This document shows positions 20,986-26,700 of a DNA stretch of 64,000 nucleotides, piece by piece. The translations under genes were made by a program, and so were the position numbers. The first letter of the stretch is position 1. Each line of letters starts with the position of its first letter. The stretch covers positions 744,001-808,000 of the forward strand of contig NZ_JAPJDC010000001.1 in the NCBI RefSeq assembly GCF_026241855.1, read 5' to 3'. This stretch comes from Curtobacterium flaccumfaciens pv. betae (GTDB lineage Bacteria > Actinomycetota > Actinomycetes > Actinomycetales > Microbacteriaceae). The notes beneath the pieces are model-generated. The model did no database searches. It saw only the letters and a list, made by a program, of their open reading frames with translations, and had not been told where the DNA came from.

Positions 20986-21963
20986 TTGTCCGGAATCAAG
21001 ACAACCGGCCAGAAACGACTCGTCCTCGTCTCGGGGCGAGCACACCCGGCGCTCTCTGCCGAGATCGCGGAGGAGCTCGGGGTCGACCTCGTGCCGACCG
21101 ATGCCCGGACCTTCGCGAACGGTGAGCTCTACGCCCGCTTCGACGAGTCGGTCCGTGGCTGCGACGCCTTCGTCATCCAGTCGCACACCGCGCCGATCAA
21201 CGAGTGGCTCATGGAGCAGCTCATCATGGTCGACGCGCTGAAGCGTGCCTCGGCGAAGCGCATCACGGTCGTGGCGCCGTTCTACCCGTACGCCCGCCAG
21301 GACAAGAAGGGCCGCGGCCGCGAGCCGATCTCGGCCCGCCTCGTCGCCGACCTGTTCAAGGCCGCCGGCGCGCACCGCATCATGAGCGTCGACCTGCACG
21401 CCGCGCAGATCCAGGGCTTCTTCGACGGCCCCGTCGACCACCTGTTCGCCATGCCGGTGCTGCTCGAGCGCTTCCGTCAGATCCTCGACCCGAAGACGCT
21501 CACCGTCGTGTCGCCCGACATGGGCCGCGTCCGTGTCGCCGACATCTGGTCCGAGAAGCTCGGCGCCCCGCTCGCCATCATCCACAAGCGCCGCGACCCG
21601 CTCGTGCCGAACCAGGTCTCGGTGCACGAGATCGTCGGTGACGTCAGCGGACGCGTGTGCCTGCTCGTCGACGACCTCATCGACACCGGCCGCACGATCG
21701 CCAAGGCTGCCGAGGCGCTCAAGAACGCCGGCGCCACCGGTGTCGTCGTCGCCGCGACCCACGCCGTCTTCTCCGACCCGGCGACCGAGCTGCTGCAGAG
21801 CGAGTTCATCGACCGCGTGGTCGTGACGGACACCCTGCCCCTGCCGATGGACAAGCGCTGGGACCGCCTCGAGGTCCTGCCGATCGCCCCGCTCATCGCC
21901 CGTGCCATCCACGAGGTCTTCGACGACGGCTCCGTGACGTCGATGTTCGACGGCGCAGCGTAG
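20986..21963 (+). CDS. prs: Ribose-phosphate pyrophosphokinase
   Basis: Makes PRPP from ribose-5-phosphate and ATP. The 325-residue protein has PYARQDKKGRGREPISARL, DLHAAQIQGFF and the PRPP loop VCLLVDDLIDTGRTI. The start is TTG at 20986; upstream GTG is out of frame. The glmU-prs order is standard in actinobacteria. The coding sequence is the last native gene before the low-GC insertion. Confidence 0.96.
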   Translation: MSGIKTTGQKRLVLVSGRAHPALSAEIAEELGVDLVPTDARTFANGELYARFDESVRGCDAFVIQSHTAPINEWLMEQLIMVDALKRASAKRITVVAPFYPYARQDKKGRGREPISARLVADLFKAAGAHRIMSVDLHAAQIQGFFDGPVDHLFAMPVLLERFRQILDPKTLTVVSPDMGRVRVADIWSEKLGAPLAIIHKRRDPLVPNQVSVHEIVGDVSGRVCLLVDDLIDTGRTIAKAAEALKNAGATGVVVAATHAVFSDPATELLQSEFIDRVVVTDTLPLPMDKRWDRLEVLPIAPLIARAIHEVFDDGSVTSMFDGAA

Positions 21964-21977
21964 CGGATTCGTCGGCT

Positions 21978-22037
21978 GAGGGCCGGTTCAAGCGATCGTC
22001 CCGTAAGCCCGGGCTTGTCGCTAATGCACCGGTCCTC
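21978..22037. repeat. Nested inverted repeat at prs 3' end / island left edge
   Basis: Three nested arms: GAGGGCCGG (21978-21986) with CCGGTCCTC (22029-22037, one wobble), AGCGA (21991-21995) with TCGCT (22018-22022), and the perfect palindrome AAGCCCGGGCTT (22005-22016). It may be the prs terminator or mark the insertion boundary; the sequence turns AT-richer immediately after it. Confidence 0.5.
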
Positions 22038-22060: not shown

Positions 22061-22089
22061 TTGAGATTTGTTCACATTATCAATATGAT
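22061..22089 (+). promoter_or_regulatory. Promoter of the SIR2-HerA-KTSC operon
   Basis: TTGAGA (22061-22066) and TATGAT (22084-22089) are separated by 17 bases, the best sigma-70-type match in the window. The predicted transcription start falls on or next to the GTG at 22096, implying a leaderless mRNA. Confidence 0.7.
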
Positions 22090-22095
22090 CTCCAT

Positions 22096-23241
22096 GTGGG
22101 AGATCACCTATTCGAGAACGAACTCGGCAAGCTCACCGAGCATCTTGCGTCGTCGGACAAAATGACGTCGTTTCTATTCGGGGCTGGTGCGTCCGCGGCG
22201 GTGCGGGTGCAAGGAACGTCCCTAATCCCTGCGGTTGCCGCCCTCACCGATCAATGTGAACGGGTAGTAACATCTCTCGGCCCGCGGTACGAGGCCGCCT
22301 GGGAGGTTCTGCGCCCTGCCGGTGCGACAAGACGAAATATTGAACAGATACTCAGCAATGTCCGTGCGCTACGAGCGATCGATCTACAGGGACAAGATTT
22401 TTTGGGTCTCACTGAGTTAGAGCTTCAGAGATTGGAAGCGGAGATTCAGAGTGCGATTGTTGCTGCTGTGAGTCCCCGAAACATCCCGACAGGCCTCCCT
22501 CATGACGCGTTTGCTAAGTGGGTCGGGCGAACCAGTCGCACGCGTCCCATCGAGATTTTCACTACAAACTACGATGTTCTTATCGAGACAGCGCTCGAGG
22601 AGAATCGTGTCCCCATCTTCGACGGCTTTGTTGGGTCTGCAATGCCGTATTTCTACGATGCAAGTATGCGGTTGAACGGGCCGATGGCGAAACTCGATTG
22701 GACCAGGCTCTGGAAGATGCATGGTTCGATCCGCTGGGGATTAATTCAAGACCGTGCAGGAGATTCTCGTGTCGTCCGCACCGATTCGGAGGGTTCGGGA
22801 GAACTGATCCTCCCGAGTGCTCAGAAGTATGATGAGTCCCGTAAGCAGCCTTATATTGCGATGCTCGACAGGTTCCGGGACGTTCTCAACGTGCAAGAAG
22901 ACGGAATACTCGTGGCGATCGGATACTCTTTTTCCGACCAGCACATCAACGAGGTGATATTCGATGCGCTTTCGCATAACCCGCGACTTCACTTGTTTGC
23001 CCTGATGTACGAAGATATCGAAGTTGCTTCGCAATTGCACCAGGTCGCGACTCGACGCCGCAACATCGTTGCATATGGTGCGAGGAACGCGGTCGTTGGA
23101 GGAGTTCTCGCGAACTGGACTTCCAAGCTCGATGCCGATCATCCGAGTAGCGAGTTCCTATCCGATGCGGGGCAGGGTGTGAAGTCCAATCTTGGAGACT
23201 TTGCCACTCTTGGACGGTTGTTCGATCGGATTTCGCGATGA
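22096..23241 (+). CDS. SIR2-family NADase, defence-type
   Basis: SIR2-like protein of 381 residues from this start. The NAD-binding loop FLFGAGASAA is at residues 27-35; EIFTTNYDVLIE (TTNYD at 156-160), the predicted catalytic His209 in KMHGSIRW, and AIGYSFSDQHINEVI (276-281) are typical of phage-defence SIR2 proteins that cleave NAD+. GTG at 22096 was chosen because a strong promoter ends six bases upstream; TTG 22015 and ATG 22024 lie within a hairpin, before the promoter. ATG 22162 is a shorter alternative. GC content and codon use (AT-ending codons, at least two TTA) differ sharply from neighbours, indicating transfer. It overlaps HerA by ATGA. Confidence 0.9.
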   Translation: MGDHLFENELGKLTEHLASSDKMTSFLFGAGASAAVRVQGTSLIPAVAALTDQCERVVTSLGPRYEAAWEVLRPAGATRRNIEQILSNVRALRAIDLQGQDFLGLTELELQRLEAEIQSAIVAAVSPRNIPTGLPHDAFAKWVGRTSRTRPIEIFTTNYDVLIETALEENRVPIFDGFVGSAMPYFYDASMRLNGPMAKLDWTRLWKMHGSIRWGLIQDRAGDSRVVRTDSEGSGELILPSAQKYDESRKQPYIAMLDRFRDVLNVQEDGILVAIGYSFSDQHINEVIFDALSHNPRLHLFALMYEDIEVASQLHQVATRRRNIVAYGARNAVVGGVLANWTSKLDADHPSSEFLSDAGQGVKSNLGDFATLGRLFDRISR

Positions 23242-25061
23242 CAGGTGGACATTTGGGATCGGCTACGCACATCGGCGAGGTGCAATCAGTAACCGGGGCA
23301 GAATTGCTGGTACGACTTCGTGACGTACCTTCAACGCTAGTTATGGTTGAGGGGCAGATGCAGCGGATCGGCCAGGTAGGAGCGTTCGTCAAGGTAGTGC
23401 TGGGCTATAAAGCTCTGTATGCTGTGTGCACTCAAGTGGGCGCGAGTGAAGTGACCAGTGTCGTTGGGGAGGAAAACCCTCATGCGGTCGCGCCGGTGGT
23501 CGATCAGCCGGGCTTCCGATGGATGCGTGTCACTTTATTCGGTGAGGTAGTAGGCACGAATTTCGAACGCGGTGTTGGTCAATACCCAACTGTTGGTGAC
23601 GAGGTGCACCTAGTTCGGGAAACGGATCTTGAGGGTATTTACGGGGGCTCGGATGAAAGTGTTGGGAAGATTCCGTTTGGTGAGGTAGCAGGTCAAGCCG
23701 GCGTGACGGCACGCCTGGATATCTCAGCGTTGGTCTCGCGGCATGTCGCGATTCTGGGATCAACGGGTGCGGGAAAGTCGAACCTTGTTACGGTTCTGCT
23801 GCGGCGAATAGCCGAATCGCAACTGCCCGCCGCTCGAGTTTTGCTGATCGATCCGCATGGGGAGTACGGCACCGCCTTGGGGGAATCCCATGCGAAAGTG
23901 TTCTCGGCTGGCCCTGATGGACGCCACGGGCAGCTTCGAGTACCGTACTGGGCTCTGAGCCTAAGCGAATTTGTGACGATTGCATTCGGGAACTTACCTG
24001 ATCCTGCCCTGGAGTACGTGGGGGAGCGCGTGCGGTCCTTAAAGCAGCAAGCGGCGCTTTCGAATGAGTTCGAGATCAGCCCCGAGTCGATCACGGCCGA
24101 TTCACCTATCCCGTTCAGTGTTCGGCGGCTCTGGTACGAACTGCATGGCTTGGAGAATGCAACGTTCCAAGAAATGCAGGTGCAGGACGAGAGCACGATG
24201 TCTATTCCTGAGGACGCTGGATCAGCCGCTACTTTAGAGGCGGCGATCTACCCTCCCGCCGCTAGCGGTAGCGCAGCTCCCTTTGCGAATCGAGTCAGGC
24301 GGAACATATCTAGGCAGCTGGCTCTTCTTCGCTCAAGGATCCTCGACCCTCGATTCGGTGCGGTCTTCGCGGATGATTTGTTCGAGCCTGAACTCGACGG
24401 CAAGTGCTCCGGCGATCTTGACGCACTGCTGGTCGATTGGGTCGGGCATGATCGCCCGATAACCGCGATCGACGTCTCTGCAGTGCCCACTGAGGTGGGG
24501 CCTCTCCTAGTTGGTGCCATCCTGAACATTGTGTACGAAGCTCTTTACTGGGGATTGCACCTTCCGGTCGGCGGGAAGAATCAGCCTCTTCTTATTGTGC
24601 TTGATGAAGCCCACCGCTACGTTCCCGCTGAAGAAATCACGCTTAGCCGTAAGGTCGCTGAGCGAATCGCACGCGAGGGACGAAAATACGGGGTTGGCCT
24701 AGCGCTCGTGTCGCAACGCGCATCCGACGTTGCCGTGGGGGTACTTAGCCAGTGCGGTTCAACTATTGCTCTTCGTTGCACCAATAGTGCGGATAGACGG
24801 GCAGTTGCCGCGACGGTGTCAGACGATTTGGGTAATCTCGTTGCGATGCTTCCCTCGCTTCGGACAGGGGAGTGCCTTGTGGTGGGAGAGGCACTGCAGG
24901 TTCCGTCGCGAGTTCGGGTGTATCTCGCTCCAGAACGGCCGACGGGTGACGACCCATCTATGCCAGCCGCGTGGCAGTCTGCGCGACCAGATCCGAAGTA
25001 CTACGGGACCCTCGTGAAAGCGTGGAGAACCAAGAGGATGGAGCCGCTGACCGATGCCTAA
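23238..25061 (+). CDS. HerA-type ATPase (HAS-barrel, DUF87), SIR2 partner
   Basis: A 607-residue P-loop ATPase. An N-terminal HAS-barrel-like region precedes Walker A GSTGAGKSN (174-182), LLIDPHGEYG (202-211), Walker B LLIVLDEAHRY (451-461), and sensor/arginine-finger candidates in VSQRASD and SADRR. HerA proteins form hexameric DNA translocases; in SIR2-HerA phage-defence systems they form a complex with the NADase. The ATG overlaps the SIR2 stop, implying paired synthesis. Codon use is AT-richer than the flanks, with at least four TTA codons. It overlaps the next gene by eight bases. Confidence 0.92.
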   Translation: MTGGHLGSATHIGEVQSVTGAELLVRLRDVPSTLVMVEGQMQRIGQVGAFVKVVLGYKALYAVCTQVGASEVTSVVGEENPHAVAPVVDQPGFRWMRVTLFGEVVGTNFERGVGQYPTVGDEVHLVRETDLEGIYGGSDESVGKIPFGEVAGQAGVTARLDISALVSRHVAILGSTGAGKSNLVTVLLRRIAESQLPAARVLLIDPHGEYGTALGESHAKVFSAGPDGRHGQLRVPYWALSLSEFVTIAFGNLPDPALEYVGERVRSLKQQAALSNEFEISPESITADSPIPFSVRRLWYELHGLENATFQEMQVQDESTMSIPEDAGSAATLEAAIYPPAASGSAAPFANRVRRNISRQLALLRSRILDPRFGAVFADDLFEPELDGKCSGDLDALLVDWVGHDRPITAIDVSAVPTEVGPLLVGAILNIVYEALYWGLHLPVGGKNQPLLIVLDEAHRYVPAEEITLSRKVAERIAREGRKYGVGLALVSQRASDVAVGVLSQCGSTIALRCTNSADRRAVAATVSDDLGNLVAMLPSLRTGECLVVGEALQVPSRVRVYLAPERPTGDDPSMPAAWQSARPDPKYYGTLVKAWRTKRMEPLTDA

Positions 25062-25266
25062 GATGATTGGCGTACAGAGCACGAATATATCGAGCATAGG
25101 GTATGATTCAGGCGCAGAATTGCTACAGGTGGATTTCCTAAACGGCTCGTCCTACGAGTACCACGGGGTCCCAGAGGCTGTATGGCATGAGTTCCTCGGT
25201 GCTGCTTCAAAGGGAGTGTATCTTCATCGGTCCATTAAGCCGTTCTACTTGGCATACAGACTTTGA
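25054..25266 (+). CDS. KTSC-domain small protein
   Basis: A 70-residue protein made entirely of a KTSC domain: VDFLNGSSYEYHGVPEAVW contains the YxY motif (Tyr34 and Tyr36), followed by FLGAASKGVYLHRSIKP. KTSC is also found at the C-terminus of some lysyl-tRNA synthetases and is suspected to bind RNA; its function is unknown. The start overlaps HerA by eight bases and the stop overlaps the TTG of the next gene, so it belongs to the SIR2-HerA operon. It might be an accessory or regulatory subunit; that is inference. Confidence 0.8.
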   Translation: MPKMIGVQSTNISSIGYDSGAELLQVDFLNGSSYEYHGVPEAVWHEFLGAASKGVYLHRSIKPFYLAYRL

Positions 25267-26039
25267 CCAAGGCGAGGGCGGCGCTCGCTTTAAGGCTGCG
25301 AAATAATGGGAGCGTCTTCGCCGAGGACGAAGCCGACCTGTTGCTCGAGGCCGGTGACGGTGAGCCGGTGCGACTCCGCACCCTCGTGCAGCGTCGGCTG
25401 GCCGGTGAGCCGCTGGAGTACGTGCTCGGCTGGGCCGCCTTCGACGGGCACCGCATCCGGGTGACCCCGGGGGTCTTCGTGCCGCGAGCCCGCACCACCG
25501 TCGTCGTCGAGCAGGCTGCGCGTCGGCTGCAGCGCTACGACCGCGTGGTCGACCTGTGCTGTGGCGCCGGCGCGATCTCGGTGGCCCTGTTCGGTCGGGT
25601 CGGCGCGCTCGACCTCGTCGCCACCGACATCGACCCGGACGCCGTCGACGTCGCAGCCGAGAACATCGGCGACCGCGGCATCGTCGTCGCGGGTGACCTG
25701 TTCGCGCCGTTGCCGGATCGGTTCCGCGGCGCCGTGGCGGTCATCGCGGTGAACGCTCCCTACGTGCCGACGGCCTCGATCGAACTCATGCCGACCGAGG
25801 CCCGCGAGCACGAACACCGCGTCGCCCTCGACGGAGGTGTGGACGGCCTCGATCTGCACCGCCGGATCGCAGCGGGTGCGGGGGAGTGGCTCCGTCCCGG
25901 TGGCGCCGTGGTCATCGAGGTGTCCGAGGCCCAGGCCGAGGCGTCCGCCGCTGCCTTAACGGCCGCGGGCTTCTCCACCGTGGTCGAGCGGGACGCCGAG
26001 GTCGACGGCACCTGCGTCGTCGCGACCCTGCCTGCCTGA
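25263..26039 (+). CDS. PrmC-related protein N5-glutamine methyltransferase
   Basis: Class I SAM methyltransferase of 258 residues. Motif I is VVDLCCGAGAISVAL and the catalytic loop is NAPYVP, the variant of NPPY seen in the PrmC-related subfamily. From VFAEDEADLL onward the codons are native high-GC. The first about 17 codons (TTG start, GCT TTA AGG, CGA AAT AAT) look like the low-GC island. The junction therefore lies near 25310, and the gene's original start has been replaced by island sequence overlapping the KTSC stop (TTGA). Confidence 0.85.
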   Translation: MTKARAALALRLRNNGSVFAEDEADLLLEAGDGEPVRLRTLVQRRLAGEPLEYVLGWAAFDGHRIRVTPGVFVPRARTTVVVEQAARRLQRYDRVVDLCCGAGAISVALFGRVGALDLVATDIDPDAVDVAAENIGDRGIVVAGDLFAPLPDRFRGAVAVIAVNAPYVPTASIELMPTEAREHEHRVALDGGVDGLDLHRRIAAGAGEWLRPGGAVVIEVSEAQAEASAAALTAAGFSTVVERDAEVDGTCVVATLPA

Positions 26040-26070: not shown

Positions 26071-26700
26071 GCGGTCACGACACACCGCTCAGGTTCGCCG
26101 AGGCGGCGCGAAGTGTCGCCTGCGCGTCTGCGAACCGACGCTTTCTGCACCCCGGCGTGACGCATGCGGCGTGTCGCGCGACCAGGGCGAGGGGCGGGGC
26201 GGGCCGGCACCGGGCCTCCAGGCCGTCGGGTGACCGGAGCGCGCGAGCGGTGGGCGGTCACGACATGCCGCTCAGGTTCGCCGGGGCGGCACGAAGTGTC
26301 GCCTGCGCGTCTGCTAACCGACGCTTTCTGCACCCCGGCGTGACGCACGTGGCGTGTCGCGCGACCAGGGCGAGGGGCGGGGCGGGCCGGCACCGGGCCT
26401 CCAGGCCGTCGGGTGACCGGAGCGCGCGAGCGGTGGGCGGTCACGACATGCCGCTCAGGTTCGCCGGGGCGGCACGAAGTGTCGCCTGCGCGTCTGCTAA
26501 CCGACGCTTTCTGCACCCCGGCGTGACGCACGTGGCGTGTCGCGCGACCAGGGCGAGGGGCGGGGCGGGCCGGCACCGGGCCTCCAGGTCGTCGGGTGAC
26601 CGGAGCGCGCGAGCGGTGGGCGGTCACGACATGCCGCTCAGGTTCGCCGAGGTGGCACGAAGTGTCGCCTGCGCGCCCACGAACCGACGCGTTCTGCCAC
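26071..26700. repeat. 183-bp tandem repeat array (about 3.4 copies)
   Basis: Units begin at 26071, 26254, 26437 and 26620, giving an exact 183-bp period; the last is partial. Each starts near GCGGTCACGACA and carries GGCCTCCAGGCC hairpin sequence. Copies two and three are almost identical. The array fills a 706-bp spacer between the converging methyltransferase and molybdoprotein genes. Because 183 is divisible by three, long meaningless frames run through it on both strands; I see no gene here. Confidence 0.9.

Follow-up and report, generated by a model that had tools for sequence, protein, structure and literature searches.

The closest solved relative of the locus described here is the SIR2/HerA antiphage complex of PDB entries 8wld, 8wiv and 8w9l, probably that of Liao et al. 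2024. In 8wiv a KTSC domain is fused to HerA and is resolved in the deposited complex; it is likewise resolved in 8wj3, but the titles of both entries speak of just "a bacterial protein". Depletion of NAD+ is known from published relatives. According to PMC12198126, the SIR2 protein of these systems is a two-layer dodecamer to which HerA binds as a hexamer, and PMC9503650 mentions HerA-KTSC-endoDNase systems.

The window analyzed here, a 64,000-nucleotide stretch of the Curtobacterium flaccumfaciens pv. betae genome, carries a SIR2-HerA cassette in which KTSC is a gene of its own. The closest solved chain to its HerA is that of 8wiv (E 2.4e-131, 442 bits) and the closest to its SIR2 protein is that of 8w9l (E 2.5e-53). 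An earlier note on this DNA knew of no described KTSC partner for such modules. That statement is not supported in view of 8wiv and of the endoDNase systems in PMC9503650, and the surprise of a KTSC partner shrinks, since the same domain belongs to a solved HerA chain.

Gene content of the cassette

The first cassette gene (22096..23241, on the forward strand as are all the genes below) encodes a putative SIR2-like NADase, with matches to the Pfam family SIR2_2 (PF13289, E 1.7e-18) and to the PADLOC SIR2 model PDLC04093 (E 3.5e-117). Its open frame as listed begins with a TTG at 22015; the in-frame GTG at 22096 appears the likelier start because the stop-to-stop frames of two relatives (L037 and L092) begin near the domain, and the position 22061 given in the earlier note is out of frame. 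The second gene (23238..25061) encodes a hexameric-type HerA/DUF87 ATPase that matches the HerA central domain (PF01935, E 2.4e-32) and the PADLOC HerA model PDLC04105 (E 1.1e-137). The locus thus has the SIR2-domain protein and the adjoining HerA ATPase by which a PADLOC-type definition recognizes a SIR2-HerA system, as the note had supposed in calling it a defence cassette. Scores against the NCBIfam anti-phage equivalogs fall below their curated cut-offs (NF042942, 72.4 against 500 bits; NF042944, 193.3 against 850; NF042943, 160.7 against 800).

The third gene (25054..25266) encodes the 70-residue KTSC protein, whose match to PF13619 (E 1.5e-21) exceeds the gathering cut-off and which has the KTSC fold. 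It is the single KTSC match in the whole genome and is recognized by none of the PADLOC models; a homologue search with the 70-residue query, limited in reach by the short words available, recovered the window's own protein alone. In sequence, fold and position it corresponds, as a freestanding protein, to the domain at the C-terminus of the 8wiv/8wld HerA. The frame of the window's HerA closes at 25061 and does not include the KTSC domain, which is encoded in a separate frame. In another split example, from an E. coli plasmid (L087), HerA aligns up to 8wiv residue 624 and KTSC begins at 633, so that the split between the two genes lies within the linker. All the motifs reported earlier were located: GAGAS, TTNYD, KMHGS with the catalytic His, and GYSFSD in the SIR2 protein, and YEY (the YxY motif) in KTSC.

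The genes are tightly packed, largely as first described. An ATGA at 23238-23241 contains both the SIR2 stop and the HerA start, while the overlap claimed between HerA and KTSC amounts to 8 nt with the first KTSC ATG and becomes a 1-nt gap with the alternative ATG at 25063. A small gene at the end of so tightly overlapping an operon might suggest an antitoxin-like inhibitor that holds SIR2-HerA off until infection. We consider this quite improbable: KTSC is encoded 3' of HerA and, in the solved chains, cannot be released because it is fused to HerA there, although a brake that acts in place would still fit.

The cassette between prs and a methyltransferase gene

Both flanking genes are residents of the locus. 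On the left, the cassette begins directly 3' of the stop codon of prs (ribose-phosphate pyrophosphokinase, 20986..21963; PF13793, E 6.1e-48); on the right, it abuts a PrmC-related methyltransferase gene (25263..26039; TIGR03704, 294.3 bits against a cut-off of 248.8), whose TTG start overlaps the KTSC stop by 4 nt (25263-25266). The G+C content of the cassette is 0.53-0.61, against about 0.66-0.78 in the flanks. The methyltransferase gene is present in 60/60 of the same-genus genomes sampled, and we inspected 30 of these loci, namely the window's own and 29 others, one of them (G398) from the same species. All of the 29 have prs next to the methyltransferase gene, the matches to the two flanks being 47-137 bp apart, and none has a cassette match at the site. 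Within the window the methyltransferase gene differs from its relatives in about its first 16 codons (25263-25310), which are AT-richer and encode a similar peptide, as if the incoming DNA had brought its own gene start. Directly 3' of this gene, at 26071-26697, a 183-bp unit is repeated in tandem (3.4 copies with 96% matches).

These empty sites bear directly on whether KTSC is a mere passenger or part of the methyltransferase locus, as its overlap with the methyltransferase start and the frequency of KTSC genes in the family (45/398 genomes) might lead one to think. The earlier note had asked whether KTSC lies beside the methyltransferase in relatives that lack SIR2-HerA: it does so at none of the 29 empty sites, where a tblastn search for KTSC produced just 12 matches, all at chance level (26 residues, E 0.87). 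This rules out a resident of the methyltransferase locus. Since KTSC is also linked to HerA in distant bacteria and on a haloarchaeal plasmid, and fused to it in 8wiv, the passenger explanation as a whole is scarcely credible.

Linkage of KTSC to HerA

To survey the linkage more broadly we pooled 67 loci: the window, 9 loci from genome contigs, 20 from the family (G324, one genome with a SIR2 match, is not among them), 16 from Actinomycetota and 21 from plasmids, the last hand-picked from the 60 listed of 342 records. Each was scored for HerA, SIR2 and KTSC. With a HerA threshold of 300 bits, set after the scores had been seen, KTSC lies directly 3' of HerA in 28 of the 30 loci scoring at least that high; the two exceptions are L006, where the contig ends inside HerA, and L118, where HerA is broken. 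KTSC could not be scored at these two, nor at L009 (a HerA remnant amid unrelated genes) and L096 (an N-terminal piece). Three C-terminal HerA fragments (L010, L095 and L105, the last from the same genome as L096) are each followed by KTSC. An Agrobacterium plasmid (L118/L127) has its HerA in two pieces several kb apart, and KTSC follows the C-terminal piece (L127). In the loci that combine SIR2 with a HerA of at most 210 bits, KTSC occurs at 0/18. The split gene is thus the common form of this SIR2-HerA lineage among the loci examined.

We also searched 396 Actinomycetota genomes. A HerA match above 100 bits occurs in 6 of them, a "window-type" set delimited by its best match after the scores had been seen, and KTSC in 15, counting one that scores below the curated cut-off. 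Each of the 6 HerA genomes belongs to these 15 and has its KTSC next to HerA (Fisher p 9.7e-10, both searches having apparently covered the same sample). The co-occurrence in other genomes on which the earlier note had made its proposal depend is therefore found, both here and in the pooled loci, and together they rule out a chance neighbour. The other 9 of the 15 KTSC genomes lack this HerA, and at these 9 loci no HerA or OLD match was found within the stretch inspected. In the family, the cassette is present in four genomes (G000, G319, G023 and G034), all KTSC-bearing, and the other 41 of the 45 KTSC genomes are without it.

HerA and KTSC also stand side by side in all of the 32 top plasmid records (H1-H32; judged by annotation, ORF or match coordinates, many of them near-copies), and a further record (H34) lacks this pairing. 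Of 77 plasmid records 60 were listed, some with no gene or annotation, and in none of these does a HerA-annotated feature lie under a KTSC match; of 4351 HerA relatives, the 120 listed have no KTSC label in their Pfam domains. A scan of viral contigs added one full cassette (L131), and one of 5426 E. coli genomes has a place covering most of the L087 cassette. Phage records gave two weak HerA matches. In Blautia phage Montmirail (ON453898.1, 8815-10119), a protein annotated as the large terminase subunit aligns with HerA across 81% of the query at 22% identity, and its name may be wrong.

The 28 pooled loci and L131 make a set of 29 cassettes. In all of them the three genes have the same order and strand, with KTSC starting from -11 to +30 nt relative to the HerA stop (by our own start-picking rule), and the Asn of TTNYD and the His of KMHGS are invariant; the SIR2 protein of one (L002) is short at its N-terminus. 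KTSC and HerA distances are correlated over the 29 (r 0.887, reached in 0/5000 permutations) and also inside the main clade (r 0.87, n=25). Four cassettes, including the haloarchaeal one, carry a divergent KTSC subtype (L094, L114, L116 and L117). The KTSC tree, poorly resolved and too short to establish one origin, needs 7 label changes and does not group the cassette KTSCs into a single clade; repeated recruitment of KTSC is therefore possible. Additional genes lie beside some cassettes: directly 3' of KTSC there is a SLATT-domain gene in one and a hypothetical gene in another (L115, 4499-5053, and L112, 4629-5666, respectively), and two frames annotated as ADP-ribosylglycohydrolase follow the haloarchaeal cassette (L117, 4250-5342).

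Role of KTSC and comparison with known systems

We conclude that the three-gene cassette is a real, conserved and horizontally moving variant of a known defence complex. As a whole, the locus is probably best explained as an anti-phage SIR2-HerA cassette of the 8wld/8wiv lineage, acquired by horizontal transfer and of three-gene form, with KTSC as an integral subunit. That last element, one of the options in the earlier note, is very probable when taken separately: KTSC matches a domain built into the motor protein of a solved relative and its linkage is conserved, so that a working subunit is much the likeliest reading. The KTSC protein would replace the C-terminal KTSC domain of the solved HerA, HerA would form a hexameric motor that docks the SIR2 NADase assembly, and KTSC would occupy the C-terminal face of this ring, with most likely one copy per HerA chain. 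There it may act as a clamp or gate, holding neighbouring motor subunits or setting when the ring is active; infection would alter the state of KTSC or of the ring, whereupon SIR2 would destroy NAD+ and phage growth would stop.

A clamp or gate rather than a sensor is a tentative preference, held at slightly less than even chances. It draws on an analogy with PMC12198126: adjacent HerA subunits of HerA-DUF4297 are linked more firmly by a C-terminal hook, but in Sir2-HerA no similar hook was seen, and KTSC may take over this role at the C-terminal face. Alternatively, KTSC could be a sensor that turns HerA-SIR2 on when it binds a phage protein or else DNA or RNA, which we regard as possible though unlikely. 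A small, conserved domain placed at the motor's tail would suit this role, KTSC is called DNA-binding in PMC9503650 and RNA-binding in PMC7824862, and KTSC is found beside other defence-like genes (L126, L130 and L146). Nucleic acid binding is, however, less likely because most KTSC domains of the cassettes are acidic (pI 4.18-6.93, median 4.75, n=29), a weaker point for the window protein with its pI of 6.2; a sensor of a phage protein would still fit. Nothing found here favours the RNA- or tRNA-sensing trigger of the earlier note, and this charge speaks against it.

Outside the cassette, KTSC directly precedes the gene of an AAA_15 protein that has an OLD-like TOPRIM domain on a Haloferax plasmid (L126, 3486-5637) and a Streptomyces plasmid (L130, 1363-3483), and on a Halorubrum plasmid an E2/UBC gene, a ThiF gene and an overlapping KTSC gene lie in a row (L146, 166-3198). 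Elsewhere, a frame of more than 560 residues ends in a KTSC domain and has no other Pfam match (L132, 1-1692). Perhaps KTSC is a small interchangeable control subunit of several unrelated defence operons (SIR2-HerA, OLD-like ATPase-TOPRIM and E2/ThiF), a rather unlikely idea that, if true, would make it a single part for protein sensing or gating, shared between bacteria and archaea. Against this, 5 of the 8 hand-picked non-cassette plasmid loci show no such partner beside KTSC, and the 9 non-cassette actinobacterial loci described above gave no HerA or OLD match in the stretch inspected. More immediately, two-gene annotation or cloning of loci like that of the window would omit a conserved subunit, since the three-gene form is usual among the loci examined yet the PADLOC models miss KTSC. 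With KTSC in a gene of its own, its role can also be tested by removing that one small gene while leaving the motor untruncated.

In the open papers searched we found no description of the three-gene SIR2-HerA-KTSC form, although those on the solved complexes may discuss the domain. The closest known proteins include two stand-alone KTSC proteins, 7x8c and 4rgi. Two-gene SIR2-HerA systems (Nezha, e.g. 8j4u/8su9 and 8yho/8yhx) have the same succession of SIR2 and HerA genes and the NADase motifs, but their HerA is distant (94.7 and 64.5 bits, versus 442 for 8wiv), and KTSC is absent from the 18 distant SIR2-HerA loci examined. The HerA-KTSC-endoDNase systems of PMC9503650 likewise couple a HerA ATPase to a KTSC gene; there a nuclease replaces the sirtuin, whereas the window has SIR2 upstream of HerA and a sirtuin is present in 29/29 of the cassettes examined, the window included. 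It is the 8wld/8wiv/8w9l complex that combines the closest solved SIR2 and HerA with the same KTSC domain, differing in that its KTSC is fused into one 696-residue HerA chain while that of the window is a separate gene.
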